From NCBI GenBank assembly GCA_017436955.1, contig JAFSCD010000016.1, forward strand, positions 1 through 64,000: a stretch of DNA of 64,000 nucleotides, written 5' to 3'. This document shows, in pieces, positions 11,409 to 42,562 of this stretch. Below the pieces are notes generated by a model. It made no database searches, was not told the DNA's origin, and was given only the letters and a program-made list of their open reading frames with translations. The stretch is from Oscillospiraceae bacterium (GTDB taxonomy: Bacteria > Bacillota > Clostridia > Oscillospirales > Oscillospiraceae). Within the stretch, counting starts at the first letter, position 1; each line of letters opens with the position of its first letter. The position numbers and the translations under genes are program-made.

Positions 11409-12128
11409 ATGAAATATAAGGTTACCCTCAATGGTCGTACCTACGAGGTCGAGGTCGAAGCCGGCAAGGCTATGCTCCTGAATGAGTACGCCGCCGTTGC
11501 CCCTGCTGCAGCTCCCGTGGCTGCTCCCGCATCCGTGGCCGCTGCTCCTGCTGCCGCACCTGCCGCACCTGCTGCCGGCGTTACCGTTTCCGGAGGTGAG
11601 AGCGTTACCGCTCCCATGCCCGGCAACATCCTGAAGGTCAATGTCGCTGCCGGTCAGGCTGTCAAGAAGGGCGATGTTCTGATCGTTCTGGAAGCTATGA
11701 AGATGGAAAATGAGATCATGGCTCCCTGTGACGGCGTTGTTTCCGCTGTTCCCGTAGCCAAGGGCGCTACCGTCAATACCGGCGATCTGCTGGTTGCCAT
11801 CGGCGGCACCGTTACCGCTGCCGCACCTGCTCCCGTAGCTGCGCCTGCACCTGCTGCCGAGCCCGCAGCCGTACCCGTGGCTGCTCCCGCACCCGTGGCC
11901 GCCGCTCCCGTTGCCGGTGAGGCTGTGAAGGCTCCTATGCCCGGCAACATCCTGAAGGTCAACGTTGCTGCCGGTCAGGCCGTCAAGGAAGGCGACGTTC
12001 TTCTGGTTCTGGAAGCCATGAAGATGGAAAATGAGATTATGGCTTCCAAGTCCGGCACCGTTGCGCAGGTGCTGGTATCCAAGGGCGCCAGCGTAAATAC
12101 CGACGATGTTCTGGTCGTCCTGGCATAA
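11409..12128 (+). CDS. Biotin carrier subunit with two tandem biotinyl domains
   Basis: A 239-residue protein: an N-terminal strand ([17 protein letters not shown]), an Ala/Pro-rich linker, one biotinyl domain, a second Ala/Pro linker and a second biotinyl domain. Both domains keep the biotin-accepting EAMKMENEI motif, with target lysines K98 and K205 exactly 107 residues apart, and share the entry [22 protein letters not shown] of the two domains is close to 90% alike by eye (11610-11724 versus 11931-12045), so the duplication is recent or kept alike. Carriers in glutaconyl-CoA and oxaloacetate decarboxylases usually have one such domain. It would shuttle carboxyl between the alpha and beta subunits. 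BioY at 24380 could supply biotin. Confidence 0.93.
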
Positions 12129-12139
12129 GGAGGATCCCA

Positions 12140-13405
12140 ATGAATATCAATATCGGTGAAGTTCTGCTGAATTTGTGGAACGATTCCGGTTTTTCTGCCA
12201 TCATCAACGGCTTTGGTGCCGGTGGCTGGCAGAATCTGGTTATGATCATTATTGGCTGCGTGCTGCTGTACCTGGGTATCGTCAAGCAGTTTGAGCCGCT
12301 GCTGCTGGTGGGTATTGCATTCGGCTGTATTTTGAGCAACCTGCCTCCCGTTCCCGGCGCTGCTGCCATGTACAATCAGGATCTGTGGAACGCTTACATC
12401 AACGGATCTGCCTACCAGGTGCTGAACGAGGCCGGCGAGGTCATCAAGACCATTGAGGAGATCCACTTTACAGACATTATTCACTACGGCGGTCTGCTGG
12501 ACATCTTCTATATCGGTGTCAAGGCCGGACTTTATCCCTGCCTGATCTTTATGGGCGTTGGCGCAATGACCGACTTTGGCCCTCTGCTCTCCAATCCCAA
12601 GAGCCTGCTGTTGGGCGCTGCTGCACAGATGGGCGTATTTGCCGCATTCTTTGGCGCTGTCGCCCTGGGCTTTACCGGTCAGGAGGCCGCTTCCATCGGT
12701 ATCATCGGTGGTGCTGACGGTCCTACCGCCATCTTCCTGACTACCAAGCTGGCGCCCCATCTGCTGGGTGCCATCGCTGTGGCTGCTTACTCCTATATGG
12801 CGCTGATCCCCCTGATCCAGCCGCCCTTTATGAAGATGCTGACCACCGCAAAGCAGCGCAAGATCAAAATGGTGCAGACCCGGAACGTGTCCAAGACCGA
12901 GAAGATCATCTTTCCCATTCTGGTTACCATCTTCGTGGCGCTGCTGCTGCCCGATACCGCACCGCTGGTAGGCTGCCTGATGCTGGGCAATCTGTTTAAG
13001 GAAACCGGCGTTACCGACCGCCTGAGCGACACCGTACAGAATGCGCTGATGAACATCGTCACCATTCTGCTGTCCACCGCTGTTGGCGCTACCATGGTAG
13101 GCTCCACCTTCCTGACGGTAGAGACCCTGAAGATCGTTGTGCTGGGCGTTTGTGCGTTCATTCTGTCCACCTGCGGTGGCCTGGTTGGCGGCGTTATCAT
13201 GTGCAAGTTGACCGGTGGTAAGGTCAATCCGCTGATCGGCTCTGCCGGTGTGTCCGCCGTTCCTATGGCAGCCCGTGTTGCCAATAAGGAAGGTCAGAAG
13301 GCCAACCCCTCCAACTTCCTGCTGATGCACGCTATGGGCCCCAACGTGGCCGGCGTTATCGGCTCTGCCATCGCTGCAGGCTTCCTGCTCAGCGTTTTTG
13401 GTTAA
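12140..13405 (+). CDS. oadB: Na+-translocating decarboxylase beta subunit
   Basis: A 421-residue polytopic membrane protein of the OadB/GcdB/MmdB family. It decarboxylates carboxybiotin and pumps Na+ outward. It has about nine or more membrane segments, and the family region GIIGGADGPTAIFLTTKLAP, which carries the Na+-coupling aspartate (DGPT), is intact around residue 195. The C-terminal block GSAGVSAVPMAARV is also typical. Start AAGGAGGATCCC precedes ATG 12140. It is the last gene of the operon. The beta subunit alone does not set the substrate; the pyruvate carboxylase-type alpha subunit points to oxaloacetate. Confidence 0.94.
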   Translation: MNINIGEVLLNLWNDSGFSAIINGFGAGGWQNLVMIIIGCVLLYLGIVKQFEPLLLVGIAFGCILSNLPPVPGAAAMYNQDLWNAYINGSAYQVLNEAGEVIKTIEEIHFTDIIHYGGLLDIFYIGVKAGLYPCLIFMGVGAMTDFGPLLSNPKSLLLGAAAQMGVFAAFFGAVALGFTGQEAASIGIIGGADGPTAIFLTTKLAPHLLGAIAVAAYSYMALIPLIQPPFMKMLTTAKQRKIKMVQTRNVSKTEKIIFPILVTIFVALLLPDTAPLVGCLMLGNLFKETGVTDRLSDTVQNALMNIVTILLSTAVGATMVGSTFLTVETLKIVVLGVCAFILSTCGGLVGGVIMCKLTGGKVNPLIGSAGVSAVPMAARVANKEGQKANPSNFLLMHAMGPNVAGVIGSAIAAGFLLSVFG

Positions 13406-13412
13406 GTAAGCC

Positions 13413-13456
13413 AATCCCCACGCAAGCTTCTGCTTGCGTGGGGATTTTCTTTTTTT
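13413..13456 (+). terminator. Terminator of the oad operon
   Basis: AATCCCCACGCAAGC pairs with GCTTGCGTGGGGATT across a short loop and is followed by TTCTTTTTTT. Confidence 0.92.
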
Positions 13457-13465
13457 ATTTCCGCA

Positions 13466-13505
13466 GGGGATTGCCACGTCGGGCATTCGCCCTCCTCGCA
13501 ATGAC
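13466..13505 (+). repeat. 40-bp dispersed repeat, copy 1 (degenerate centre)
   Basis: It begins GGGGATTGCCACG and ends CTCGCAATGAC. It has the same ends as the copies at 18116-18155 and 34310-34353, but the middle differs (TCGGGCATTCGCCC). Confidence 0.7.
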
Positions 13506-13756
13506 ACACTGTTTTAACATCGCAGCAAATTGCGACAAATTTACCCTACACAATTCGTGTACAATACCCCTGAAAGGAGGGTAAAAACCGCCGTAAAATA
13601 TTTCTATTTTTTGATTGCATTTTTATCTCGAAGCTTTGGAAAAAATCCTTGAATTTTCCACAAAAATGTGTTAAAATTTACGGTGAGGAAATATCGCATT
13701 TTTTACAGTTTTTCAACTGGTTTTTTCGAGATTTTGCACCGAAAGGAGCTAAAATT
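13506..13756 (+). promoter_or_regulatory. dnaA upstream region with promoter and DnaA box
   Basis: A 250-bp AT-rich stretch without a gene. Promoter: -35 TTGAAT (13649-13654), 17-bp spacer, -10 TAAAAT (13672-13677). A DnaA-box-like TTTTCCACA (13654-13662) lies inside the spacer, so DnaA could repress its own promoter. The ribosome site AAAGGAG is at 13742. It may also be one half of the replication origin. Confidence 0.65.
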
Positions 13757-15070
13757 ATGTATTCATCTGCCTATGTTTGGGCCAAGGTTCTCAACCATAT
13801 GGAAGAACGCCTGGGCTCTGTGACCGTATCGGCCTGGTTTGACGATGCGGAGGTGGTGGAGCTGACAGAGGAGCACCTGATTTTGCACACCTCCTCGGAG
13901 TTCCGCCAGGAGATCATCCGCCGGCGCTGCACCGAATTTATCCGGGATGCGCTGAAGGAAATTTTCAATTCCGACGCCAAGCTGCTGGTATTTGGCGATG
14001 CGGAGCTGGAGGCTTTCCGCTCCAAGGATAAGAAGGACAGCACTTTGGATTTTAATCCCCAGTTTTCCTTTGACAGCTTTATCGTAGGTCCTTCCAACCG
14101 CTTTGCACACAGCGCGGCCATAGCCGTAGCCAGCCATCCCGGTGACGTCTACAATCCCCTGTTCATTTACGGACCTCCCGGTGTGGGCAAGACCCATCTG
14201 CTGTATGCCATCGCCAACGGCATCCGCAACACCAATCCCGATGCCAAGATCGTATACATCAAGGGTGACCAGTTCACCAACGAGCTGATCGCCGCCATCC
14301 AAAGCGGTAAGAACATCGAATTCCGCAGCAAATACCGGGAAGCGGATCTGTTTCTGATCGACGACGTGCAGTTTATTGCCGGCAAGGAATCCACTCAGGA
14401 GGAATTCTTCCATACCTTCAATACGCTGTACGAAGCCCGCAAGCAGATCGTTATGACCGCTGACCGGAAGCCCAGCGATATGCTGACCCTGGAGGATCGG
14501 CTGCGTACCCGTTTTGAGTGGGGTCTGCTGGCGGATATTCAGCCGCCGGATTATGAGACCCGTATGGCGATCCTGAAAAACAAGGCTGACCGTCTGGGTC
14601 TTGAGTTAAGCGACGAGGTCTGCCACTACATCGCCAACAACATCACCAACAATGTCCGCCAGATCGAAGGCACCGTCAAGAAGATTCTGGCATACCGTGA
14701 CCTGAACGATATGCCGCTGGATCTGCCCAACATCTCCCGCGCCATTGAGGATATGTTCAAGGCCGAAGGCAGCGCGCTGCCCACGCCTAACCTGATCATC
14801 AGCCAGGTCTGCAAATTCTACAGCATCGACGAAGCCACGCTGCGGAGCACTTTGAAGAGCAAGGGTACTGCCGAGGCCCGTCAGGTGGCGATGTATCTAG
14901 TTCGCAAGCTGACGAATCTGAGCCTGCCGGACATCGGTCAGGAATTCCGCCGGGACCATTCCACCGTTCACCACGCCATCAATAAGGTGGAAGCCGGGCT
15001 GAAAAACGGCGATGTAACATTGCAGAACAACATCCGGGATATCACCGCAAACATCAATTCCTGCCTGTAA
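13757..15070 (+). CDS. dnaA: Chromosomal replication initiator DnaA
   Basis: A 437-residue DnaA. Domain I at about 1-80, then a short linker (KDSTLDFNPQFSFDSF marks the start of domain III), the AAA+ P-loop GPPGVGKTHLL, Walker B FLIDDVQF, sensor region and arginine finger (LRTRFEWGL), and domain IV with the DnaA signature (FRRDHSTVHHAI near the C-terminus). It binds DnaA boxes and opens oriC. ATG 13757 with AAAGGAG is used; an upstream in-frame ATG at 13649 overlaps the promoter and is not used. It heads the dnaA-dnaN-recF-gyrBA cluster. Confidence 0.98.
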   Translation: MYSSAYVWAKVLNHMEERLGSVTVSAWFDDAEVVELTEEHLILHTSSEFRQEIIRRRCTEFIRDALKEIFNSDAKLLVFGDAELEAFRSKDKKDSTLDFNPQFSFDSFIVGPSNRFAHSAAIAVASHPGDVYNPLFIYGPPGVGKTHLLYAIANGIRNTNPDAKIVYIKGDQFTNELIAAIQSGKNIEFRSKYREADLFLIDDVQFIAGKESTQEEFFHTFNTLYEARKQIVMTADRKPSDMLTLEDRLRTRFEWGLLADIQPPDYETRMAILKNKADRLGLELSDEVCHYIANNITNNVRQIEGTVKKILAYRDLNDMPLDLPNISRAIEDMFKAEGSALPTPNLIISQVCKFYSIDEATLRSTLKSKGTAEARQVAMYLVRKLTNLSLPDIGQEFRRDHSTVHHAINKVEAGLKNGDVTLQNNIRDITANINSCL

Positions 15071-15314
15071 AGTTATCCACATCAGGCTGTGGAATGTGGA
15101 AAGATAACCTGTGCATAACCTGCACTGCGAAATATGTCAAATCCCGCTGTTGAAAAGTTATCCTTTTTCCAATTCCGCCTGTGGATAAAAAGTGCCCGGA
15201 TTTACTGGACGAATTAGGGTTTTCCACATAAGTTTGGACTACTGATACTGTTACTGCATTATTTCTTATTTTTATATATAAATTAGATTCTAATAGACAG
15301 AAAGGAAATTTGCT
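15071..15314 (+). other. Likely replication origin (oriC) segment between dnaA and dnaN
   Basis: Exact DnaA boxes occur at 15073-15081 (TTATCCACA) and 15180-15188 (TGTGGATAA, reverse). Near boxes are at 15220-15228 (TTTTCCACA) and about 15095-15103 (TGTGGAAAG). An AT-only run around 15258-15296 could be the unwinding element. A dnaN promoter should lie here too, but no clear -35/-10 pair stands out. Confidence 0.72.
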
Positions 15315-16424
15315 ATGCGTTTTACCTGTGAAAAAAGTATGCTGGTTGCCGGCCTGAATATTGCCAGCCGCACCGTTGCCCAGAAGAGCTCGCTTTCCGC
15401 ACTGGAGGGTATCCTCTGTAACGCAGCCGATGGTCTGACCCTCACCGGCTATAATATGGAAACTGCTATCAGCTATTGTATCGAGGCCGAGGTTACCGAG
15501 GCTGGTCAGTGCATTCTGCCTGCAAGACTTTTCGGTGATATCATCCGCCGACTGCCGGAAGGTCCCGTTACCGTTCTGGTGGATGACAACTATAAGATCT
15601 CCATCCGCGCCGGCTATGCTTCTTTCACCATCAGCGCCGAAAGCGCCGAGGATTATCCGGAGCTGCCGGAGGTATCCGAGGGTCGCCCCGTGCAAATTCC
15701 CCAGAATGTACTGAAGGATCTGATTTCCGGCACCATCTTTGCCGTTTCCGAAAATCAGGGCAGACCCATCCACACCGGCGTGAAATTTGAGGTGGAAAAC
15801 GACAGTATCTCCGCCATTGCCGTGGACGGCTTCCGTCTGGCACGCAAGACCTATCACACGCCCGAACAGACCGGCTGGAATCTGAACTTTGTTGTTCCTG
15901 CTGCCGGATTGAAGGAAGTGGAAAAGATCCTGACCGACAGCGATGATGACGCGTTCTTCACCCTGGGCAGCAAGCACATTCTGTTTAGGATCGGTGACGC
16001 GACCCTGATCTGCCGTCTGCTGGAGGGTGATTTCCTGGATTGGCGCAGAGTCGTGCCCCAGAACTGCCCCATCAAGCTGACCGCCCACGTCAGTGATCTG
16101 GCAAGCTCCATCGAGCGCGTGGGTCTGATCGTTTCTGAAAAGTACAAAAGCCCGGTGCGCTGCGTATTTGCGGATCAGGTGCTGCAGCTGCGTACCCAGA
16201 CCACCATCGGCGCCGCAGAGGATCGCTGCGCTATTGCCGGTGACGGTAAGGATCTGGAGATCGGCTTCAACGTCCGTTATCTGGCGGATGCCCTGCGTGT
16301 GATCCCCTCCGAGGAGGTCGTTATGGAGCTGACCAACGGCTTAAGCCCCATCGTGCTGACCTCTGCAGAGGAAAAGTATGACTTTGCTTATATGATCCTG
16401 CCGGTGCGGATCAAGAACGGATAA
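15315..16424 (+). CDS. dnaN: DNA polymerase III beta sliding clamp
   Basis: A 369-residue sliding clamp, the ring that tethers replicative polymerase to DNA. The three-domain length fits. The opening MRFTCEKSMLVAGLNIASRTV and the closing TSAEEKYDFAYMILPVRI (the usual P-[VM]-R-[IL] end) are characteristic. GAAAGGAAAT precedes the ATG. It follows the oriC segment and is followed within 7 bases by the S4 gene. Confidence 0.97.
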   Translation: MRFTCEKSMLVAGLNIASRTVAQKSSLSALEGILCNAADGLTLTGYNMETAISYCIEAEVTEAGQCILPARLFGDIIRRLPEGPVTVLVDDNYKISIRAGYASFTISAESAEDYPELPEVSEGRPVQIPQNVLKDLISGTIFAVSENQGRPIHTGVKFEVENDSISAIAVDGFRLARKTYHTPEQTGWNLNFVVPAAGLKEVEKILTDSDDDAFFTLGSKHILFRIGDATLICRLLEGDFLDWRRVVPQNCPIKLTAHVSDLASSIERVGLIVSEKYKSPVRCVFADQVLQLRTQTTIGAAEDRCAIAGDGKDLEIGFNVRYLADALRVIPSEEVVMELTNGLSPIVLTSAEEKYDFAYMILPVRIKNG

Positions 16425-16430
16425 TTGGCT

Positions 16431-16676
16431 ATGAAAGTTACCGTACGGAAAAAAGAAAATCATATTCCCGTTGTGATCGGCACGGAGTTTATCAAGCTGG
16501 AATCTGCCATGAAGCTGGCGAATATCATGCCCTCCGGCGGCAGCGCCAAGCAGGAGATCCAGGCCGGTTACGTGCTGGTAAACGGTGAGATCTGCACGAT
16601 GCGTGGCAAGAAGCTGTATCCCGGCGATACCTTCAGCTACGACGGCGAGACCTGGTGTATCCATGCGGCTGTGTGA
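16431..16676 (+). CDS. S4-domain RNA-binding protein (YaaA/RlbA type)
   Basis: An 81-residue single S4 domain: FIKLESAMKLANIMPSGG, then KQEIQAGYVLVNGEICTMRGKKLYPGD, the RNA-binding loop of the fold. Genes of this family sit between dnaN and recF in most Firmicutes (B. subtilis yaaA). Their role is not firmly settled; ribosome assembly has been proposed. ATG 16431 lies six bases after the dnaN stop without a strong ribosome site, so translational coupling to dnaN is likely. It overlaps recF by 14 bases. Confidence 0.9.
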   Translation: MKVTVRKKENHIPVVIGTEFIKLESAMKLANIMPSGGSAKQEIQAGYVLVNGEICTMRGKKLYPGDTFSYDGETWCIHAAV

Positions 16677-17763
16677 TATTACGCTCCGGGATTTTCGAAA
16701 TTACGAATGTCAGCAGATCGCATTTGATCCCGGTGTAAATTTGATCGTGGGCGATAATGCCCAGGGTAAGACCAATCTTCTGGAAGCTATCTGCTATTTA
16801 GGCTCCGGAAAGAGCTTCCGGGCGCAAAAAACGGGAGAAATGGTGCGCTTTGGCGCGGATTTTGCCGATATTGAAGGCAGCGTGTTCTCCCAGGAGCGGT
16901 TGCAGACCCTGCGTTGGGTGCTGTTTTCCGGCTCCCGACCCCGACAGCTTTGGAAAAACGGCGTGAAAAAGAAAACGGCGGCGGATATATCCGGTGTTAT
17001 GTCAACCGTTTTATTCTGCCCCGAGGATCTGATGGTGCTCAAATCCGGCGCCTCCGCACGGCGGCGCCTGGGTGACCACGCCCTGTGCCAGCTGCGCCCC
17101 AACTATGACGCGGCGCTAACGGAGTACAACCGTATTCTGGAGATCAAGAGCAAAATACTGAAGGATCATTTTGAAAATCCTGCGGTGCTGGAGATCCTGC
17201 CGGAGTACAACACCCGGCTGTGCCAGGTAGGCGCGCTGCTCATCAGCTACCGTGCCAGATTTTATGAAGGTCTCGGTAAGGAGGCTGCCCGGTATCATCA
17301 GCAATTTTCCGGCGGCGCCGAAGAATTTGTGCTGGATTACAAAACCGTTTCCACGGTTGCGGATCCCTTTGCCCCGGTGGATACGCTGGTTGCGGCTTTG
17401 CAGGAACATCTGGAAAGTCATTATCGGGCGGAGCTGGAAACGGCACAGTGCCTTACCGGTCCCCATAAGGATGATTTTTCTGTCAGCCTTTCCGGGATCG
17501 ACCTGAAAGCCTACGGCTCCCAGGGGCAGACCCGGACGGCGGCCATCAGCCTGAAGCTGGCGCAGCGTGAGCTGATGAAACGGGAATCGGGCGAAGAGCC
17601 GGTGCTGCTGTTGGACGATGTTCTGTCGGAATTGGACCCCGGCCGGCAGGATTTTGTGCTGAATCAGATCGTTTCCGGTCAGGTGTTTATCACCTGCTGC
17701 GAGCCCGGCCGCTTCACCAAGCTGGGAAAGACCATTGAAATTGAAAAAGGAAATGTAAAATAA
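16663..17763 (+). CDS. recF: DNA replication and repair protein RecF
   Basis: A 366-residue SMC-like ATPase that helps RecOR load RecA at gaps. It opens MRLCDITLRDFRNYE; the P-loop is GDNAQGKTN, the signature region SQGQTRTAAISLKLA, and Walker B VLLLDDVLSELD. ATG 16663 lies inside the S4 gene, 14 bases before its end, typical of this cluster. In B. subtilis remB and gyrB follow; here a foreign-looking GIY-YIG gene intervenes and remB has moved behind rnhA. Confidence 0.96.
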   Translation: MRLCDITLRDFRNYECQQIAFDPGVNLIVGDNAQGKTNLLEAICYLGSGKSFRAQKTGEMVRFGADFADIEGSVFSQERLQTLRWVLFSGSRPRQLWKNGVKKKTAADISGVMSTVLFCPEDLMVLKSGASARRRLGDHALCQLRPNYDAALTEYNRILEIKSKILKDHFENPAVLEILPEYNTRLCQVGALLISYRARFYEGLGKEAARYHQQFSGGAEEFVLDYKTVSTVADPFAPVDTLVAALQEHLESHYRAELETAQCLTGPHKDDFSVSLSGIDLKAYGSQGQTRTAAISLKLAQRELMKRESGEEPVLLLDDVLSELDPGRQDFVLNQIVSGQVFITCCEPGRFTKLGKTIEIEKGNVK

Positions 17764-17767
17764 TTAT

Positions 17768-17807
17768 GTCATTGCGAGCCAGTGCGAACACTGGCGTGGC
17801 AATCCCC
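17768..17807 (-). repeat. 40-bp dispersed repeat, copy 2: left inverted end of the GIY-YIG unit
   Basis: An exact 40-base reverse complement of the copy at 18116-18155. It begins GTCATTGCGAGCCAGTGCGA on the plus strand. It starts five bases after the recF stop. Confidence 0.95.
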
Positions 17808-17823
17808 TGGAAAGAGGAGTAAT

Positions 17824-18111
17824 GTGAATTATTACGTTTATATTCTCACCAACGCACACAAAACTGTATTGTATACAGGCGTCACAAATGACCTTAAGCG
17901 AAGGGTATATGAGCATAAGAATCACTTAGATAAAGGAAGTTTTACATCCCAATATAATGTCGAATATCTAGTATATTATGAAGTAACCAATAATATCGAG
18001 TCTGCGATTTCCAGAGAAAAGCAAATCAAAGGCTGGAATAGAAAAAGAAAAGAAAAACTAATTGAGCAGAAAAACCCAAATTGGAGTGATATTTATGATA
18101 GTATCCTTTGA
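17824..18111 (+). CDS. GIY-YIG nuclease-domain protein inserted between recF and gyrB
   Basis: A 95-residue stand-alone GIY-YIG domain of the small UPF0213/YhbQ-like type: YYVYILTN (GIY strand), LYTGVTNDLKRRVYEHK (YIG strand with T for I, and the catalytic arginine), and ISREKQIKGWNR with the metal-binding glutamate; NPNWSDIYD is a common family ending. GTG 17824 is the start, with AAAGAGGAG upstream. Base composition is foreign: 27% and 33% GC in the lines 17941-18060, against about 60% in neighbouring gyrB. The gene is bracketed by perfect 40-bp inverted repeats that also occur alone elsewhere in the window. Cutting activity and target are unknown; a role in spreading the repeats is inference. 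Confidence 0.9.
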   Translation: MNYYVYILTNAHKTVLYTGVTNDLKRRVYEHKNHLDKGSFTSQYNVEYLVYYEVTNNIESAISREKQIKGWNRKRKEKLIEQKNPNWSDIYDSIL

Positions 18112-18115
18112 ACTT

Positions 18116-18155
18116 GGGGATTGCCACGCCAGTGTTCGCACTGGCTCGCAATGAC
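18116..18155 (+). repeat. 40-bp dispersed repeat, copy 3: right inverted end of the GIY-YIG unit
   Basis: It begins GGGGATTGCCACGCCAGTGT and ends GCTCGCAATGAC. Its interior can form a CCAGTG/CACTGG stem. It is exactly complementary to 17768-17807. Confidence 0.95.
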
Positions 18156-18185
18156 CGCTTTAATTTTACATTAGGAGGACTATGC

Positions 18186-20111
18186 ATGTCTGACGAAATG
18201 AAAGTAACGCAGGAATATGGTGCGGAGCAGATTCAGGTTCTGGAAGGTCTGGAAGCTGTCCGCAAGCGCCCCGGTATGTATATCGGCTCTACCTCCGCGT
18301 CCGGTCTGCACCATCTGGTGTACGAGATCGTGGATAACTCCATCGACGAGGCGCTGGCAGGCTACTGCAAGCACATTACCGTTACCATCAACCCCGGTAA
18401 TTCCATTACCGTCACCGATGACGGTCGTGGTATCCCCGTAGATATTCAGCCCCAGACCGGCAAGCCTGCTCTGGAGGTCGTATTTACCGTGCTGCACGCA
18501 GGCGGTAAGTTCGGCGGCGGCGGTTACAAGGTTTCCGGCGGTCTGCACGGCGTTGGCGCGTCTGTTGTGAACGCGCTGTCCGAATGGCTGAAGGTACGGG
18601 TCTACAAGAACGGCAACATCTATGAGATGAAGTTCTCCCGCGGACACATCACCCAGCAAATGCAAATCGTCGGCACCACCGACAAAACCGGCACCGAGGT
18701 CACCTTCCAGCCCGATCCGGAAATGTTCGACGCACTTGAATATGACTACAATATCCTTCACGAGCGTATGCGTGAGGAGGCGTTTCTGAACGCCGGTCTT
18801 TCCATCGCCATTACCGATGCCCGCGGTGAAGAGCCCGTCAGCGAGACCATGTGCTACGAAGGCGGCATCCGGGAGTTTGCTACCTGGTGCAACCGTAACA
18901 AGACACCGCTGCACAGCGATGTGATCTATATGAACGGAACCAAGGGCGATGCCTCCGCGGAGATCGCCATTCAATACAACGATGGCTACAACGAGTTTAT
19001 GCTGTCGTTTGCCAACGATGTCCGCACGCCGGAAGGCGGTATGCACGAAACCGGCTTCCGCACCGCGCTGACCCGTGTGCTGAATAACTACGGTCTTAAA
19101 AACCGCATTTTGAAGGATGACGATAAAGTATCCGGCGAGGATTGCCGTGAAGGCATCACCGCCATCATCTCCGTCAAACTGACGGATGCCCAGTTTGAAG
19201 GTCAGACCAAGGCAAAGCTGGGCAACGCCTACATCCGTACCCTGGTGGAGCAGATCGTAGGCGAGCAGCTGGCAATTTACTTTGAGGAGCATCCCGCTGT
19301 TGCCAAGACTATCCTTGAGAAGGCAATGATGGCCAACAGAGCCAGAGAAGCCGCACGTCGGGCACGGGAATCCATCCGCCGGAAAACCGGTCTGGAGTCC
19401 GGTCAGATGCCTGACAAGCTGCAGGATTGCAACGAGCGTGACCCCGAGCTGTGCGAGATCTACATCGTCGAGGGTGACTCCGCAGCCGGCTCTGCCATTC
19501 AGGGCAGAGATTCCCGTTTCCAGGCGATCCTGGCTATGTGGGGTAAAATGCTGAACGTGGAAAAAGCCCGTGCCGACAAGGTCTACGGCAACGATAAGCT
19601 GTATCCGCTGATCGTGGCGCTGGGCGCCGGCATCGGCGAGGATTTTGATATTGAAAAGCTGCGCTACCACAAAGTTGTCATTATGTCTGATGCGGACGTG
19701 GACGGCGCCCATATCCGGACGCTGCTGCTGACCTTCTTCTTCCGCTATATGCGGCCGATGATCGAAAACGGCTTCGTTTACTCCGCAGTGCCGCCGCTAT
19801 ACAAGCTCAAGCGCGGCAAGACCGAGCGGGTGGCATATTCTGACGAAGAAAGAGATCTGGTTTCCGCTGAAATGCGGGGCGAAAGCAACGCCAAGGTGGA
19901 AATTTCCCGGTTCAAGGGCTTGGGCGAAATGGATCCCCACGAGCTGTGGGAGACTACCATGGACCCGGAAAAGCGCACGCTGCGCCGCATTACGCTGGAC
20001 GATGCCCGCCGGGCTGACGAGATCTTCACCATCCTGATGGGTGAGCAGGTGGAGCCCCGTAAGGAATGGATCGAGCGCAACGCAAAATACGCCATCAATA
20101 TTGATATTTAA
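18186..20111 (+). CDS. gyrB: DNA gyrase subunit B
   Basis: A 641-residue ATPase subunit of gyrase, which introduces negative supercoils with GyrA. GHKL ATPase motifs: [22 protein letters not shown] and [31 protein letters not shown] and [15 protein letters not shown]. The C-terminal GyrB signature is [22 protein letters not shown] 18186 (MSDEMKVTQ) has TAGGAGG just upstream; the frame is open earlier only through the repeat. GyrA follows after 14 bases. Any original promoter between recF and gyrB may have been displaced by the insertion. Confidence 0.98.
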
Positions 20112-20125
20112 GGAGGTGGCGCAAA

Positions 20126-22624
20126 ATGGCAAAACACAATCGTAGCTACACACCTGATGACATCCGCTTCCCGGATCAGCACATCATTACCTCTGATCTG
20201 GTAGGCGAAATGGAAAAAGCCTATATCGAATACGGTATGAGCGTCATCGTCGGCAGAGCGCTGCCCGACGTCCGTGACGGATTGAAGCCCGTTCACCGCC
20301 GTATTTTGTATACTATGTACGAATCCGGTCTGACCTCGGACAAGCCTTTCAAAAAGTCCGCGACCTGTGTCGGTGATGTGCTGGGTAAGTACCATCCCCA
20401 CGGTGACAGCTCTGTTTACGATGCAATGGTGCGTCTGGCGCAGGATTTCTCCATGCGCTATATGCTGGTGGACGGTCACGGTAACTTCGGCTCCGTGGAC
20501 GGCGATCCTGCGGCTGCTTACCGTTACACGGAAGCCAGATTGAGCAAGCTGTCCAACGAAATGCTCCGGGATATCGACAAGGAGACCGTCAACTGGGATC
20601 CCAACTTCGACGAATCCCGGAAGGAGCCCAGAGTTCTCCCCAGCCGGTTCCCTAATCTGCTGGTCAACGGCTCCACCGGTATCGCCGTTGGTATGGCTAC
20701 CAACATTCCGCCCCATAACCTGACCGAGGTCATCAACGCCTGCGTGGCAGTGCTGGACGATCCCGAGATCACCATGGTGGATCTGATGGAGCATATTTCC
20801 GGTCCGGATTTCCCCACCGGCGGCATTATTATGGGTCGCACCGGTATCCGCGCCGCCTATGCCACTGGTCGTGGCAAGGTGGTCGTCCGTGCCCGGACAG
20901 AATTTGAAGAATTCGGCAATGACCGGGTGCGGATCATCGTCACCGAGCTGCCCTACCAGGTCAATAAGCGCCAGCTGATCAAGACCATTGCCGAGCAGGT
21001 GAAGGACAAGCGGCTGGACGGCATCTCCGACCTGCGTGACGAGACCGACCGCAACGGTATGCGTATGGTCATCGAGCTGAAAAAGGACGTCAATCCCCAG
21101 GTGGTGCTGAACAATCTGTTCAAGCAGACCGCGCTGCAGTCTAGCTTCGGCATCATTATGCTGGCACTGGTGGACGACCAGAAGCAGCCCAGAATCCTGA
21201 CGCTGCGGCAGATCATCGACGAATATCTGGCACACCAGAACGATGTTCTGACCCGCCGCACCCAGTTTGACCTGCGTAAGGCACAGGAGCGTGCCCATCT
21301 GTTGGAGGGTCTGCTGATCGCCCAGGATAATATCGACGAGGTCATCCGCATTATCCGCAGCGCTTATGACGATGCAAAGCAGAAGCTGATGGAGCGCTTC
21401 GGTCTGGACGATGTGCAGGCACAGGCGATCCTGGATATGCGCCTGAAGGCTCTGCAGGGTCTTGACCGGGAAAAGCTGCAGGCAGAATTCGACGAGCTGC
21501 AGCAGCGCATTACCTATTATCAGGAGCTGCTGGCTGACCCGGCAAAGATGCGCGGCGTGCTGCGTGACGAGCTGATCGAGATCCGGGATAAGTTCGGCGA
21601 CGAGCGCAAGACCGAGATCCAGGATGTGGAGGACGAGATCGACATCGAGGATCTGATCGAGGAAGAGACCTGCGCCTTCACCATCAGCAAGCAGGGCTAC
21701 ATCAAGCGGATGCCCGTGGACATTTACCGCACGCAGGCCCGCGGCGGTCGTGGCGTCAATGCCCAGAATCTGAAGGAAGAGGACTATGTCAAGTCCCTGA
21801 ATATCGCTTCCACCCACGATCATATTCTGTTCTTTACAGATACCGGACGTGTGCATCACCGCAAGGGTTACCAGATCCCCGAGGCCGGCAGAACGGCCCG
21901 TGGCACTGCCATTATCAATATTCTGCCTCTGGAGCCCGGCGAAAGCGTCACCGCAATGGTGATCACCCGGGAATTCCATGAGGATGAATTCCTGATGATG
22001 TGTACCAGAAACGGTACTGTCAAGCGCATCCCGTTTATTGCCCTCAAGACCAACCGCAAGGGCGGTATCCGTGCGCTGACGCTGGATGAGGGCGATCAGC
22101 TCATCAATGTGATCCGCACCAACGGCAACGATAACATTATTCTGGCGACCCGGTTGGGTATGGCGATCTGCTTCAATGAAAACGATGTCCGTCCCATGGG
22201 CAGAGATGCTATGGGCGTCAGGGGTATCGCATTGAGCGAGGACGATTGTGTCATCGGCGCCGAAAAGGCAGAGGATGGCAAGACTTTGCTGACCGTTACC
22301 GAAAACGGCTACGGCAAGCGCACCGAGCTGGTGGAATATCTGCGCACCGGTCCCGACGGCGAGAAGCAGCCCCAGCAGCGCGGCGGTAAGGGTCTGAAGA
22401 ACTACAATATCACCGCCAAGACCGGCGCCATCGCCGGCTGCCGTGTGGTCAGTGAGACCGACGATGTGATGCTAATCGAGAGCAGCGGTGTCATTATCCG
22501 TATCCCTGCCAATACCATTAACGTCTACAAGCGTGATGTTCAGGGCGTTATTGTAATGCGCATCGAGGAAGAAAATCGCCTGGTATCTATGGAACGGGTG
22601 GAGCAGATGGAGACCGAGGAATGA
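20126..22624 (+). CDS. gyrA: DNA gyrase subunit A
   Basis: An 832-residue breakage-reunion subunit. [22 protein letters not shown] opens the winged-helix domain, the catalytic tyrosine lies in [12 protein letters not shown], and the C-terminal beta-pinwheel carries the GyrA box region [10 protein letters not shown], which marks gyrase rather than topoisomerase IV. A strong AAGGAGGTGG site precedes the ATG. The stop overlaps the rnhA start (ATGA). Confidence 0.98.
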
Positions 22625-23058
22625 AAACCGTAACGCTTTACACAGACGGTGCCTGCTCCGGAAATCCCGGACCCGGCGGCTGGGGTGCGATCTTGGAGTA
22701 TGAAGGTCACGAAAAAGAGCTTTCCGGCGGCGAAGAAAGCACCACCAATAACCGCATGGAGCTGACTGCGGTGATCCGTGGTCTGCAGGCGCTGAAGGAA
22801 AGCTGTATCGTGGAGCTGTATTCCGACAGTAAGTACGTCATTGACGGTCTTGAGAAGGGCTGGGCTGCCTCCTGGCGGAAAAACGGCTGGAAAAAGGCGG
22901 ACAAAAAGCCGGCTTTGAACCCGGATCTGTGGGAAATTCTGCTTTTGCTGACCGAAAAGCACCATTTGCACTACCATTGGGTGAAGGGTCACGCGGAAAA
23001 TCCCAAAAACAACCGCTGCGATCAAATGGCGGTTGAGGAATGGAAAAAGCTGAAATAA
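22621..23058 (+). CDS. rnhA: Ribonuclease HI
   Basis: A 145-residue RNase H1 that removes RNA from RNA-DNA hybrids. [16 protein letters not shown] opens the fold with the first catalytic aspartate; [13 protein letters not shown] gives the glutamate; [12 protein letters not shown] the second aspartate; and [17 protein letters not shown] the histidine and last aspartate. The basic protrusion ([12 protein letters not shown]) is present. It is translationally coupled to gyrA (4-bp overlap), so RNase H is co-made with gyrase; both limit R-loops. Confidence 0.96.
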
Positions 23059-23080
23059 CTGTATGCAGCCTTATAAATCT

Positions 23081-23118
23081 GTCATTGCGAACCAGTGTGC
23101 GCACTGGCTCGAAATGAC
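23081..23118. repeat. 40-bp dispersed repeat, copy 4 (symmetrical form)
   Basis: It begins GTCATTGCGAACCAGTGTGC. Unlike the other copies both ends are of the GTCATT...AATGAC kind, making a nearly perfect palindrome directly upstream of remB. Confidence 0.8.
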
Positions 23119-23137
23119 ATAATGAGGTACTTAATCT

Positions 23138-23380
23138 ATGTATCTATCCATCGGTAATGATATGGCGGTGCGCTCCGGCTCCATTGTGGGCATTTTCGAT
23201 CTGGACAACACCACGGTGACGAAACGGGGACGCCTGTATCTGGAACAAGCGGAAAAAGAGGGTCGGGTGGTGCCCTGCGACGATCTGCCGAAATCCTATG
23301 TGGTAACGGCAGAATACGGCATCGAGCGGATCTATTTGACCCCATTTAACGCCTCCACCTTGGAAAAAAGGTTGAAATAA
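23138..23380 (+). CDS. remB: RemB/YaaB-type DUF370 regulatory protein
   Basis: An 80-residue protein of the RemA/RemB (DUF370) family: MYLSIGNDMAVRSGSIVGIFDLDNTT and SYVVTAEYGIERIYLTPFNASTLEKR. RemA is a DNA-binding activator of matrix genes in Bacillus; RemB function is less clear. In B. subtilis remB lies between recF and gyrB; here that place is taken by the GIY-YIG unit and remB sits behind rnhA. The ATG at 23138 has a GAGGT site about 10 bases upstream. A terminator follows at once. Confidence 0.87.
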   Translation: MYLSIGNDMAVRSGSIVGIFDLDNTTVTKRGRLYLEQAEKEGRVVPCDDLPKSYVVTAEYGIERIYLTPFNASTLEKRLK

Positions 23381-23382
23381 GC

Positions 23383-23407
23383 AAAAGCCTCCCAAATGGG
23401 AGGCTTT
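23383..23407 (+). terminator. Terminator after remB
   Basis: An AAAAGCCTCCC stem, loop AAAT, complement GGGAGGCTTT. It closes the origin cluster. Confidence 0.82.
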
Positions 23408-23429
23408 CGCATTTGTAAGATGGAGCGAT

Positions 23430-23558
23430 AAGGCCCCCTTGTGTAAAGGGGGCTGTCAGAAACCGAAGATTTCTGACTGGGGGATTGTAATGTTCGTATA
23501 CAGACAATCCCTCCGTCACGGCTTGCGCCGTGCCACCTCCCTTTACACAAGGGAGGCT
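23430..23558. repeat. Multi-hairpin repeat, family C copy 1
   Basis: The outer arms AAGGCCCCCTTGTGTAAAGG (left) and its near-complement ending CTTTACACAAGGGAGGCTT (right) enclose three further stems: TCAGAAA...TTTCTGA, GGATTGT...ACAATCC and CACGGC...GCCGTG. Each outer arm is also self-complementary. It is almost the same as 24949-25078. Confidence 0.85.
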
Positions 23559-23561
23559 TTT

Positions 23562-24335
23562 TTATGCAAACAGCTCCGAAATGGGTGCGAAGCGGTAGCC
23601 CATCTCCTCCCATTTGGTGAGCAATTCGTCCAGAATTTCCGCATTGGTTGCCGAGGTGGAATGCAGCAGCACCACCGCACCGTCGTGGGTACGGGGCAGC
23701 AGCTTGGAATAGGCGTATTCCGCCGTGGGCTGGTCATCATTGTTCCAATCCACGTACGCCAGACTCCAGAAAACCGTCTTGTACCCCAGCGCCTTTGCCA
23801 TCTGCAGATTGCTTTCGGAGTATATGCCTTGGGGCGGACGGTAATATTTCTCCATATCCTGCCCGGTGACCTCCCGATACAGCGCCTCCAGCTCGGTCAG
23901 TTCCTTCTCAAATGCCGATTGAACAGAAATCTTGCTCATATCGTAATGGTGCATGGTGTGATTGCCTACGGTATGCCCCTCTTTTACCATGCGGCGCACC
24001 AGATCCGGATTTTGCGCAATATAATTTCCCACCAGGAAAAAGGCAGCCGGCGCGTCGTGCTTTTTCAGCGTGTCCAGGATCTTCCCGGTGCAGCCGTTTT
24101 CATAGCCGGCGTCAAAGGTCAGGTACAAGACCTTCTCACTGGTGTCTCCGATATAGGCGGCATCGTATCTTTTTAGCTGCTGACTTGACGCCGGTCCCTG
24201 GGGCGCTGCGCCCTCTGAACGGAAGCTCAAGCCCCAGTTAGCGGTTGACATAACATCACTACGAAGCAGATGGACGGTAAGCACTGTGGCTACCAGCAGT
24301 GCGGCGATCAGCAAAATCAAATCCCGTTTACGCAT
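23562..24335 (-). CDS. pdaA: PdaA-like polysaccharide deacetylase
   Basis: A 257-residue NodB-fold deacetylase with an N-terminal signal anchor (LILLIAALLVATVLTVHLL, residues 6-24). NWGLSF followed by VLYLTFDAGYENG matches the PdaA subfamily, which removes acetyl from N-acetylmuramic acid to allow delta-lactam formation in the spore cortex. Zinc histidines lie in GNHTMHHYD; RPPQGIYSE and LLHSTSATN are the later NodB motifs. It acts outside the membrane. GGAGGGG precedes the ATG. A spore-cortex role is inferred from the family; vegetative homologues exist. Confidence 0.88.
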   Translation of the reverse strand: MRKRDLILLIAALLVATVLTVHLLRSDVMSTANWGLSFRSEGAAPQGPASSQQLKRYDAAYIGDTSEKVLYLTFDAGYENGCTGKILDTLKKHDAPAAFFLVGNYIAQNPDLVRRMVKEGHTVGNHTMHHYDMSKISVQSAFEKELTELEALYREVTGQDMEKYYRPPQGIYSESNLQMAKALGYKTVFWSLAYVDWNNDDQPTAEYAYSKLLPRTHDGAVVLLHSTSATNAEILDELLTKWEEMGYRFAPISELFA

Positions 24336-33803: not shown

Positions 33804-34214
33804 GTGGGTAAACGTAATTGGTATATCGCCTGGGGCGTGCTGTACGCGCTGTGCGCGGGTCTGGGCTTCGTGCCCGATCCGAAAGGGTTGGGATATGCGG
33901 CGCTGTTTATCCTTGCCCTGCTGTTTTTTGTGCCGCCGGCGGTTTTGACGTATCACGCCGTAAAAGAGCGGGATGTTCCGGAGCTAAAGCGGCTGCGTGC
34001 CATTTGCCTGATCTGGCTGGGGATAACGCTGGTGCTGCTGGCGCTGAATTTCCTTTCCGTTGGCTTCACGGCAGAGGCAGGAAGATTCGTTTATTGGCTG
34101 CTGATCCTCGGCTCTGCGCCTATGGTCTGCGGACAGGTTTGGGTGGTCAGCATTTTTCTGTGGGGCTGCCTGCTGTCGGCAACCTGGCAGGCACTTTTTA
34201 AGAGAAAAAGATAA
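33804..34214 (+). CDS. Small four-helix membrane protein, function unknown
   Basis: A 136-residue protein starting at GTG 33804 behind AGGAGGG. Four membrane segments can be drawn: WYIAWGVLYALCAGLGFV, GYAALFILALLFFVPPAVL, RAICLIWLGITLVLLALNFL and VVSIFLWGCLLSATWQALF, ending in a basic tail (KRKR). No family is recognised. It stands alone with its own promoter, divergent from the MATE pump. Confidence 0.75.
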   Translation: MGKRNWYIAWGVLYALCAGLGFVPDPKGLGYAALFILALLFFVPPAVLTYHAVKERDVPELKRLRAICLIWLGITLVLLALNFLSVGFTAEAGRFVYWLLILGSAPMVCGQVWVVSIFLWGCLLSATWQALFKRKR

Positions 34215-34309
34215 AAGCTTCGGGCGGGCAGACCCCGCCCATACCACTGCACTGAAGGTTTCCCTTTTGCCATTCCGAGGCTTTTTTCGCGGCGACCACC
34301 CAGCATCCA

Positions 34310-34353
34310 GGGGATTGCCACGCCAGTGACCGATGTCACCGGCTCGCAATGAC
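34310..34353 (+). repeat. 40-bp dispersed repeat, copy 5
   Basis: GGGGATTGCCACGCCAGTGA at the left and GGCTCGCAATGAC at the right, with a slightly longer centre (CCGATGTCAC). Confidence 0.85.
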
Positions 34354-34366
34354 AGGATAAAATCAG

Positions 34367-34400
34367 AAAAGCGCCGTCTCAATCGAGACGGCGCTTTTTT
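34367..34400 (-). terminator. Bidirectional terminator after the SDR gene
   Basis: AAAAGCGCCGTCTC pairs with GAGACGGCGCTTTT across AATC, with T/A runs on both sides. Confidence 0.88.
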
Positions 34401-34407
34401 CTGATCT

Positions 34408-35208
34408 TTACGGGCGCAGACCCATACCACCCTCCAGGGTGATGGTCTCGCCGTTCATATACTTGAAATCGGGATGGGCGATCTGCACGCAGACGCGACC
34501 GATCTCCGTTTCGGCATCGCCAAAATGACCGGCAGGCGGCATTTTTACATTCGCCTTAAACGCATCGGGATACGCCTGCTGGAATTTCTCCAGCTGTGCC
34601 GTCCATGCCAGGGGGCAGATGATGTTGGTGTTGATGCCGTCCTTTGCCCATTCGGTGGCAGCCACACGGGACAGACCGCGGATGCCTTCCTTGGCGGCGG
34701 CGTAGGCGCACTGACCGTAGTTGCCGAACAGACCTGCGCCGGAGGCAAAGTTGATGATGCTGCCCTTGGTTTCCTTCAGGTAGGGATAGCAGGCCTTCAT
34801 ATAGTAGAAGGTAGCATACAGACCCGAATACATTGCCAGGTCAAACTGCTCGGTGGTGTGATCCTGAATGGTAACGCCGGAGGCGGAAGCCTGGGCGTTG
34901 TTGATCAGCACGTCGATGCGACCGAATTCGGCAAACGCCGCGTCAGCCACCTTCTTTGCGGTGGCTTCGTTGTCAAGGCCGGCGGCAATATCGGCGGCAA
35001 GGATCAGCACCTTGATACCGTAGAGCTTTTCCAGCTCCTGCTTGGCCTTTTCCAGCTTGGCGACGTTTCTGCCGGTGATCACCAGGTTGGCACCCTCTTT
35101 TGCGAAGGCGGTGGCAATACCGTAGCCGATGGAGCCGCATTTGCCGTCAGACAGAGCGGCAAAGCCTGCGCCGGTGATGATAGCGGTTTTGTTATTCCAG
35201 TAACCCAT
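34408..35208 (-). CDS. Short-chain dehydrogenase resembling clostridial 12alpha-hydroxysteroid dehydrogenase
   Basis: A 266-residue SDR. The catalytic serine lies in NFASGAGLFG and the Tyr-Lys pair in YAAAKEG; RNVAK after the second strand suits an NADP preference. The stretches NNAQASASG, GLYATFYYMKACYPYLKET, GIRGLSRVAATEW and DFKYMNGETITLEGGMGLRP closely follow the 12alpha-HSDH of Clostridium ATCC 29733 as I remember it. That enzyme oxidises the 12-hydroxyl of bile acids. Odd: the glycine loop (TGAGF...GSIGYGIA) carries roughly seven extra residues (AALSDGK region). Substrate cannot be proven from sequence; another ketoreductase role is possible. GGAGG precedes the ATG. It is a single-gene unit. 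Confidence 0.75.
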   Translation of the reverse strand: MGYWNNKTAIITGAGFAALSDGKCGSIGYGIATAFAKEGANLVITGRNVAKLEKAKQELEKLYGIKVLILAADIAAGLDNEATAKKVADAAFAEFGRIDVLINNAQASASGVTIQDHTTEQFDLAMYSGLYATFYYMKACYPYLKETKGSIINFASGAGLFGNYGQCAYAAAKEGIRGLSRVAATEWAKDGINTNIICPLAWTAQLEKFQQAYPDAFKANVKMPPAGHFGDAETEIGRVCVQIAHPDFKYMNGETITLEGGMGLRP

Positions 35209-42221: not shown

Positions 42222-42376
42222 AAAGGCTTCCCCTGGGGGAAGCTGGCGAAAATCATTGATTTTTGCCTGATGAGGGGAATAATAGAACGGAAAGTTTTGC
42301 CACGGCTAACGCCGTGGGGATAACCCTCATCCGTCACGGCTGGCGCCGTGCCACCTTCTCCCCAGGAGAAGGCTTT
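42222..42376. repeat. Multi-hairpin repeat, family B copy 2 (with extra hairpin)
   Basis: Outer arms AAAGGCTTCCCCTGGGGGAA and TTCTCCCCAGGAGAAGGC. The third stem loop is longer than in other copies and carries its own hairpin (CCACGGCTAACGCCGTGG). Confidence 0.8.
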
Positions 42377-42490: not shown

Positions 42491-42496
42491 GTTTCC

Positions 42497-42537
42497 GGGG
42501 GATTGCCCCGCCAGTGTGCGCACCGGCTCGCAACGAC
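42497..42537 (+). repeat. 40-bp dispersed repeat, copy 6
   Basis: GGGGATTGCCCCGCCAGTGT to GGCTCGCAACGAC. It has a few changes from the copy at 18116-18155. Confidence 0.8.
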
Positions 42538-42562
42538 AGGTGTGATGGCTGCATCTGCGAAA

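Follow-up and report, generated by a model that had tools for sequence, protein, structure and literature searches.

A stand-alone GIY-YIG nuclease gene, held between two outward-tagged inverted hairpins in the recF–gyrB gap of an Oscillospiraceae genome, belongs to a family whose members lie beside such hairpins well beyond chance across phyla. From the genome comparisons below, we think that the cassette is likely to represent a REPtron-like element of the CGTC/TGTC class of REPs, with this nuclease, not a tyrosine (HUH) transposase, as its cognate enzyme. The family-wide placement of the gene, the orientation of the tags, the lineage-specific pairing of nuclease with repeat, and the presence or absence of the gene at orthologous sites are all read directly from the genomes. 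A repeat served by a dedicated small enzyme is known from the RAYTs; what is new here is the class of enzyme and the repeat superfamily served, and nucleases of this GIY-YIG family may supply the partner enzyme that a common class of bacterial repeats has lacked. Among the papers listed by searches of the open-access literature (subscription journals and preprints lying outside their scope), none was listed as linking GIY-YIG genes to REP-type repeats, and the portions of PMC12306157 and PMC6006769 covered have no mention of GIY for the terms searched.

The cassette and its repeat class

The window, the whole 64,000-nt stretch of DNA that was analysed, carries the cassette between recF (ORF end 17763) and gyrB (start 18186, by reading). 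The left hairpin (17768–17807, plus strand), recognized from its sequence and predicted DNA fold, is REP-like and TGTC-tagged; from its outer side towards the gene it consists of an unpaired GTC tag, a 5-bp outer stem (ATTGC/GCAAT), an inner stem-loop and a CC tail, and the predicted fold shows this outer stem, bulges and the inner stem-loop. The right hairpin (18116–18155, minus strand), recognized from its sequence, is the exact reverse complement of the left over 40 of 40 bases, with its tag on the outer side; when extended, the arms match over 51 nt at 90%. Two 40-mer matches occurred in 0 of 100 dinucleotide shuffles of the window, where the mean number of matches (at most 3 mismatches) was 0.00. 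The single ORF enclosed by the arms is the nuclease gene (17824–18111, plus strand, 95 aa, stop included), identified by PF01541 (GIY-YIG, E 2.7e-16, the sole Pfam match at E 0.001) and an alignment of 40 proteins. Its GTG start at 17824 was picked by alignment with relatives; the mechanical ORF list gives 17782–18111, 109 aa. The initial annotation, which described a GIY-YIG gene inside exact 40-bp inverted repeats between recF and gyrB, was right on both counts. It was also right that the gene is AT-rich (32.6% GC), although the 60% GC that it gave for the neighbourhood is slightly high (54.6% for the window, 56.2% for gyrB).

The same 40-bp sequence had been said to recur at several other intergenic sites. 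No further site in the window matches it within 3 mismatches; there are instead four diverged relatives, namely solitary copies at 13464–13515 (minus strand, inner part GGAGGGCGAATGCCCGA, upstream of an ORF read as dnaA), 34306–34354 (minus strand) and 42493–42546 (minus strand), and a gene-free fused palindrome tagged at both ends (GTCATTGCGAACCAGTG...CACTGGCTCGAAATGAC) at 23073–23123. Two of the four lie clear of ORFs of at least 110 aa, and the remaining pair run into minus-strand ORFs from the mechanical list (11975–13507 and 33984–34430) that we take as spurious. In the source genome (1.54 Mb, 82% complete), a strict pattern finds 8 copies and a looser one 13, cassette arms included. Rfam gave no match to the repeats within window positions 13000–24000, only sub-threshold matches nearby; one of these, to ctRNA_pGA1 (35.7 bits, gathering threshold 45), lies at 13380–13460 beside a solitary repeat.

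The general format of the repeat is an unpaired [T/C]GTC tag and a 5-base outer stem starting with A, in most cases followed by GAG or GAA; next come an inner hairpin that varies, the strand that pairs with the outer stem, and CC or CT. In a set of 403 hairpins, those closest to the gene's relatives (rows not deduplicated), we found 26 distinct outer stems, including ATTGC, ATTCC, ATTCT, ATCCT, ACCCT and ATGCT. The base before GTC was T or C in 381 of these hairpins, AT began at least 376 stems (the T being left free by the search) and the tail started with CC or CT in 385. Because GTC, the A and the pairing of the two sides were imposed by the search, this set shows the diversity of stems and is no independent proof of covariation.

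Nuclease genes and outward-tagged hairpins across phyla

From a species-level genome collection we took the 80 best of at least 564 relatives, spanning more than ten phyla by record titles. An inverted repeat scoring at least 14 between the 250-bp flanks was present at 50 of 79 loci (one of the 80 left out); control positions shifted along those contigs gave 1 of 406. Outward GTC-tagged hairpins lay on both sides of the gene at 50 of 77 loci (three left out for short flanks) and on any side at 73 of 77; the corresponding counts for shifted controls were 3 of 409 and 48 of 409, and six permuted trinucleotide tags gave both-side hairpins in just 0–1 of the 77 loci. The prediction that relatives of the gene would be flanked by the repeat beyond chance thus holds across phyla. 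Inward hairpins were also commoner than in controls (upstream 31/77, downstream 32/77), because several loci contain clusters. A stricter control took other ORFs bordered on each side by a gap of 60 nt or more, some of them neighbours sharing a gap with a nuclease gene; here hairpins occurred on both sides in 10 of 82 cases and on any side in 32 of 82, against 48 and 71 of 74 nuclease loci (six having been dropped at locus edges). This contrast is smaller than that with shifted positions, yet large.

Within the window's genus, the close subfamily had hairpins on both sides at 22 of 29 loci and on any side at 28, and distant GIY-YIG paralogues had them at 0 and 1 of 24 loci, respectively (24 of 31, with 7 dropped that had no tblastn match). 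Among gene copies examined by phylum, both-side and any-side hairpins were found in 31 and 45 of 70 from Pseudomonadota (the top-scoring loci plus 40 lower-ranked regions picked by hand), 16 and 25 of 28 from Bacteroidota, and 21 and 28 of 32 from Chloroflexota (for the latter two, loci from the search, best matches first); shifted positions pooled over all sets, the global and genus loci included, gave 8 and 104 of 867. The sets overlap, since many ‘handles’ and some genus loci are loci of the global set of 80; their 279 matches, some of them two per locus, were reduced to 230 rows for the protein tree.

In some Pseudomonadota the gene is flanked by textbook CGTC REPs of the form CGTCATTCCCGCG..CGGGAATCCA. 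The initial annotation had named homologues lacking flanking repeats as grounds for giving up its reading, and some exist: 25 of the 70 Pseudomonadota copies have no outward hairpin within 250 bp, which counts against a cognate enzyme. Among 12 of 31 named records, each taken with 300 bp of flank (several labelled ‘plasmid’ look chromosomal), outward hairpins lay on both sides in 7, including Azospirillum lipoferum 4B, where the gene sits between sufB and sufC, and Neisseria gonorrhoeae. They did not in Novosphingobium aromaticivorans, two Rhizobium records, Photobacterium or Sinorhizobium meliloti, the last with one chance-like hairpin. N. aromaticivorans and S. meliloti are both given as CGTC-REP hosts in the portion of PMC3733652 used here, and these two cases likewise speak against the cognate-enzyme reading.

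Repeat class, protein lineage and occupied or empty sites

All 34 rows with proteins of the x-[GAC]-S-R kind (motif after the catalytic Glu, E-K-Q-I/L-K) had stems ending in GC, AC or GT. The other proteins, mostly W-type, had non-GC-type stems, nearly all CT/CC, in 104 rows and GC-type stems in 39, with Bacillota supplying 34 of the 39; rows with different stem classes on the two sides were set aside here and in the tree analyses. A simple W-versus-GS rule for repeat class was rejected because Bacillota break it, with GC stems in 34 of their 52 W rows, and we therefore limit the claim to lineage-wise pairing, the GS motif serving as a rule in one direction. When the motif columns were left out of the protein tree, the split between GC-type and other repeats required 15 changes over 186 rows, against a minimum of 40 and a mean of 49 in 300 within-phylum shuffles, and three repeat classes required 26 changes over 166 rows, against a shuffle minimum of 55. 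Judged on these trees, repeat type tracks protein lineage beyond host phylum. Well supported branches provide 3 independent contrasts of motif and repeat, all in the expected direction and not significant alone, which weighs against the cognate-enzyme reading.

Three genomes of the genus (G016, G044 and G057) carry two gene types each, every type beside its own repeat type. Across 62 genomes, GC-type repeats had a median of 43 copies in the 17 with a GC-type gene versus 2 in the other 45 (p 7.5e-6), and CT-type repeats a median of 18 copies in the 8 with a CT-type gene versus 0 in the other 54 (p 1.3e-4); these p values ignore relatedness in a set of related and often incomplete genomes, and, gene type having been read from the flanking hairpins, cassette arms are among the copies counted. 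In this comparison G099 was counted as gene-free without a gene search, G013, with a broken gene, as neither type, and the G034 gene has a stop. Neither gene type was associated with the other repeat class in the 62 genomes (p 0.35 and 0.67). Repeat-rich genomes without the gene, also named beforehand as contrary evidence, were found, yet repeat abundance tracks gene type: six genomes (G002, G005, G028, G029, G032 and G052) are rich in a repeat and lack the matching gene, G002 having 196 copies at 98% completeness, and they count against the cognate-enzyme reading.

Orthologous sites occur with and without the gene. For recF–gyrB, 55 of the 56 genus genomes with gyrB were read (G040 was left out) and one (G004) shows no recF. 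The cassette is present in 8 of the resulting 54, the gap is at most 60 bp in 21, and two (G052 and G053) have a gene-less head-to-head pair only. Occurrence of the gene at this one site in 8 of 54 genomes suggests inheritance there, not frequent movement, and weighs against the cognate-enzyme reading. The insertion had been described as breaking an exceptionally conserved gene order; the gap is not specially inviolate, holding the gene in some genomes and unrelated repeats, by eye, in others, and it may be a tolerant landing site in the genus. By eye, the gap contains several unrelated kinds of repeat or cassette (L122–L176), and four genomes have more GIY-YIG or DUF559 genes no further than about 2 kb from the gyrB start, outside the gap (G044:C7, G031:C4, G011:C15 and G057:C53).

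Elsewhere, sufB–sufC lacks the gene in Azospirillum oryzae, A. ramasamyi and strain B510, and by eye lacks CGTC repeats as well. In Sphingobium TYG46, TYG73 (gene frameshifted) and MM7A the gene is flanked by two hairpins at an orthologous site. Among the gene-free records compared there (TYG64, TYG74 and TYG72, with TYG65 left out), TYG64 has a single palindrome, tagged at both ends, that matches the two gene-flanking hairpins in their outer halves, TYG74 has the same palindrome with substitutions, and TYG72 has an unrelated palindrome. These sites would fit either insertion at the palindrome axis or deletion between direct repeats common to both hairpins. No clean empty site was found in Rhizobium CIAT894, and the Shinella H4-D48 gap is too diverged for a readable junction. 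In one genome of the genus (G035), 20 gene-less pairs were found in 21 stretches read, 19 of the 20 being 178–193 bp long and most having two hairpin types. Such stretches (L212–L231 and L025) hold gene-less elements of about 180 bp and uniform length, with two hairpins and an inner palindrome.

DUF559 is a second nuclease family with the flanking-palindrome layout, and its palindromes are different. DUF559 (PF04480) genes occur in 32 of 62 genus genomes, and also at recF–gyrB in G017 and G002. Among 30 loci (L430–L459) taken from a longer match list, inverted palindromes of their own class (CCTTCCCCCGGGGGGAAGGTGGC... or CTCCCTTGTGTAAAGGGAG...) flank the gene in 22, against 0 of 106 controls; the remaining 8 have no repeat above the score threshold, and with the threshold lowered to 12 the controls give 5 of 106. 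The palindromes are of a CTTCCCC/CTCCCTT type, unlike the GIY-YIG hairpins. By eye, two further DUF559 genes of the genus (L163 and L132) show the same layout, and a stretch at window positions 42290–42360 (GCCACGGC..GCCGTGG / CCTCATCCGTCACGG) resembles DUF559-associated palindromes. A Sphingomonas parapaucimobilis record (L427) has an annotated DUF559 gene at sufB–sufC, where Azospirillum lipoferum carries its GIY-YIG cassette.

Alternative explanations and known systems

From these patterns we infer cutting of the hairpin and movement of the repeat by the nuclease. The enzyme would recognize the hairpin (tag plus outer stem) extruded as a single strand or cruciform, perhaps reading it partly through the residues directly after the catalytic Glu, and would nick or cut there; host repair or recombination would then copy, join or delete the repeat-bounded DNA, so that gene-less pairs could spread in trans and the gene would be kept between two repeat copies. 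We know of no GIY-YIG nuclease that performs strand transfer, and repeat movement would therefore need host functions.

The REPs might instead have come first, with a free-standing GIY-YIG homing nuclease entering the axis of a REP palindrome as a parasite that has no role in gene-less spread. We think this unlikely. It would draw on the standing of GIY-YIG as a classical homing-nuclease domain (PMC1564403, in the part used here), and the Sphingobium palindromes, TYG64 with the outer halves of the flanking hairpins and TYG74 with the same plus substitutions, would fit such an entry; but a fused palindrome can also come from a head-to-head pair, by deletion between shared direct repeats, no intron or intein was seen around the gene, and the greater number of gene-less repeats of matching type in gene-bearing genomes is left unexplained.

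Eukaryotic Slx1 cuts branched DNA. A non-eukaryotic Slx1 group is listed in the same portion of PMC1564403, and the window family would probably be placed in it. On a related account, which we rate as improbable, the protein has a host or domesticated function as a bacterial structure-specific nuclease of Slx1-like type: it would clear away or resolve REP cruciforms, and selection or hairpin regulation would keep the gene beside this substrate. The catalytic residues are near-invariant in 230 relatives and present in the window protein, the closest solved structures by sequence profile are UPF0213 proteins (1zg2, E 1.7e-8; 1ywl, E 3.9e-4), and the gene stays at recF–gyrB in those 8 of 54 genomes, points that speak for a host function. 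Its distribution is patchy, however (profile matches at E 1e-20 in 95 of 398 Pseudomonadota, 129 of 296 Bacteroidota and 27 of 201 Chloroflexota genomes), and this patchiness, broken gene copies (G034, G013 and L428) and the low GC content of the window gene suggest a dispensable, horizontally moving gene. The window protein had no match in NCBIfam or PADLOC and two weak matches in PHROGs, and no phage relatives were found at E 1e-10 among 50,697 phage records.

Least probable, in our judgement, is a passenger: an AT-rich orphan gene that landed by chance in repeat-rich intergenic DNA or was carried by ordinary insertion sequences. Fluoribacter gormanii, with 17 matches where other genomes have one to ten, is a case in its favour: by eye, at least 14 copies about 95–99% identical (L262–L277) accompany IS66-type transposase fragments and GTAA ends, one of them (L266) with an 8-bp duplication together with IS66-like ends, so that the cassette may have been captured there by an insertion sequence. 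The association with hairpins is nevertheless much weaker or absent at shifted positions, wide-gap ORFs and distant paralogues, and repeat class tracks protein lineage. We set aside the F. gormanii copies as proof of self-mobility, given these by-eye IS66-like ends and single duplication, as well as tandem gene copies in G106, which look like a segmental duplication.

With the GIY-YIG nuclease as the probable cognate enzyme, lineage-specific nuclease–repeat pairs make the transposase gap of the CGTC REPs open to direct test with a single small protein and an oligonucleotide, and a role could be proposed for many genes named just ‘GIY-YIG nuclease family protein’. More tentatively, and with some doubt, we suggest that several independent nuclease–palindrome partnerships (GIY-YIG and DUF559) recognize and cut palindromes, and by doing so propagate and preserve a large share of the palindromic DNA scattered over bacterial chromosomes, each enzyme lineage reading its own stem; if true, repeats would be spread by a nuclease and host repair without a transposase. 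In evolving Legionella pneumophila populations, the portion of PMC12308824 used here describes 11 mutation and recombination hotspots beside GIY-YIG genes, 3 segments with a transposase and DUF559, and 27 of 61 long-range junctions with both ends near a hotspot, all hotspot types together. These data suggest activity at such loci; the nuclease–repeat pairing might explain the hotspots if the genes belong to the same subfamily.

Among known systems, classical IS and MITE elements differ in that no target-site duplication was seen by eye at the window cassette, an absence that also counts against the cognate-enzyme reading. Free-standing GIY-YIG homing endonucleases share the nuclease domain and possible insertion at their own target, but the window gene lies between hairpin repeats, with no second Pfam domain or associated intron or intein. 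UPF0213 and other small stand-alone GIY-YIG proteins (1zg2 and 1ywl) resemble it in sequence and length, whereas distant paralogues in the same genus lack the hairpin pair (0/24). The parallel with REPs and RAYTs drawn in the initial annotation is apt: as in REPtrons and REPINs, one small enzyme gene sits inside outward-tagged inverted hairpins with gene-less head-to-head pairs elsewhere, and each enzyme lineage is paired with its own repeat class (PMC3116915, in part, for the RAYTs). RAYT repeats, however, carry a GTAG tag and not TGTC/CGTC; RAYTs are HUH/Y1 tyrosine transposases (TnpA-REP), unrelated to the window enzyme, which shows GIY-YIG as its sole Pfam match at E 0.001 and no IS200/IS605-type HUH motif with catalytic Tyr; and RAYTs are reported as single copy, unlike GIY-YIG genes.

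Closest is the CGTC-tagged REP superfamily of Di Nocera, De Gregorio and Rocco (2013), which, in the part of PMC3733652 used here, is said to ‘apparently lack a dedicated transposase’ after tyrosine transposases and further transposase genes had been examined, and is characterized by a CGTC/TGTC tag, a paired AT at the stem base, a short CC(A) tail and head-to-head pairs. The window class shares the unpaired [C/T]GTC tag, for which permuted tags fail, the stem starting with a paired A-T (ATTGC/GCAAT in the window), the short CC/CT tail of gene-flanking repeats, the occurrence in several phyla, and the head-to-head pairs, both around the gene and, gene-less, in the G035 stretches read. It differs in build, combining a 5-bp outer stem and mismatches with an inner hairpin that varies, where those REPs have one 8–9-bp stem and a 4–5-nt loop, and in its enzyme: that part of PMC3733652 reports none in association with the repeats, whereas we propose a GIY-YIG partner.
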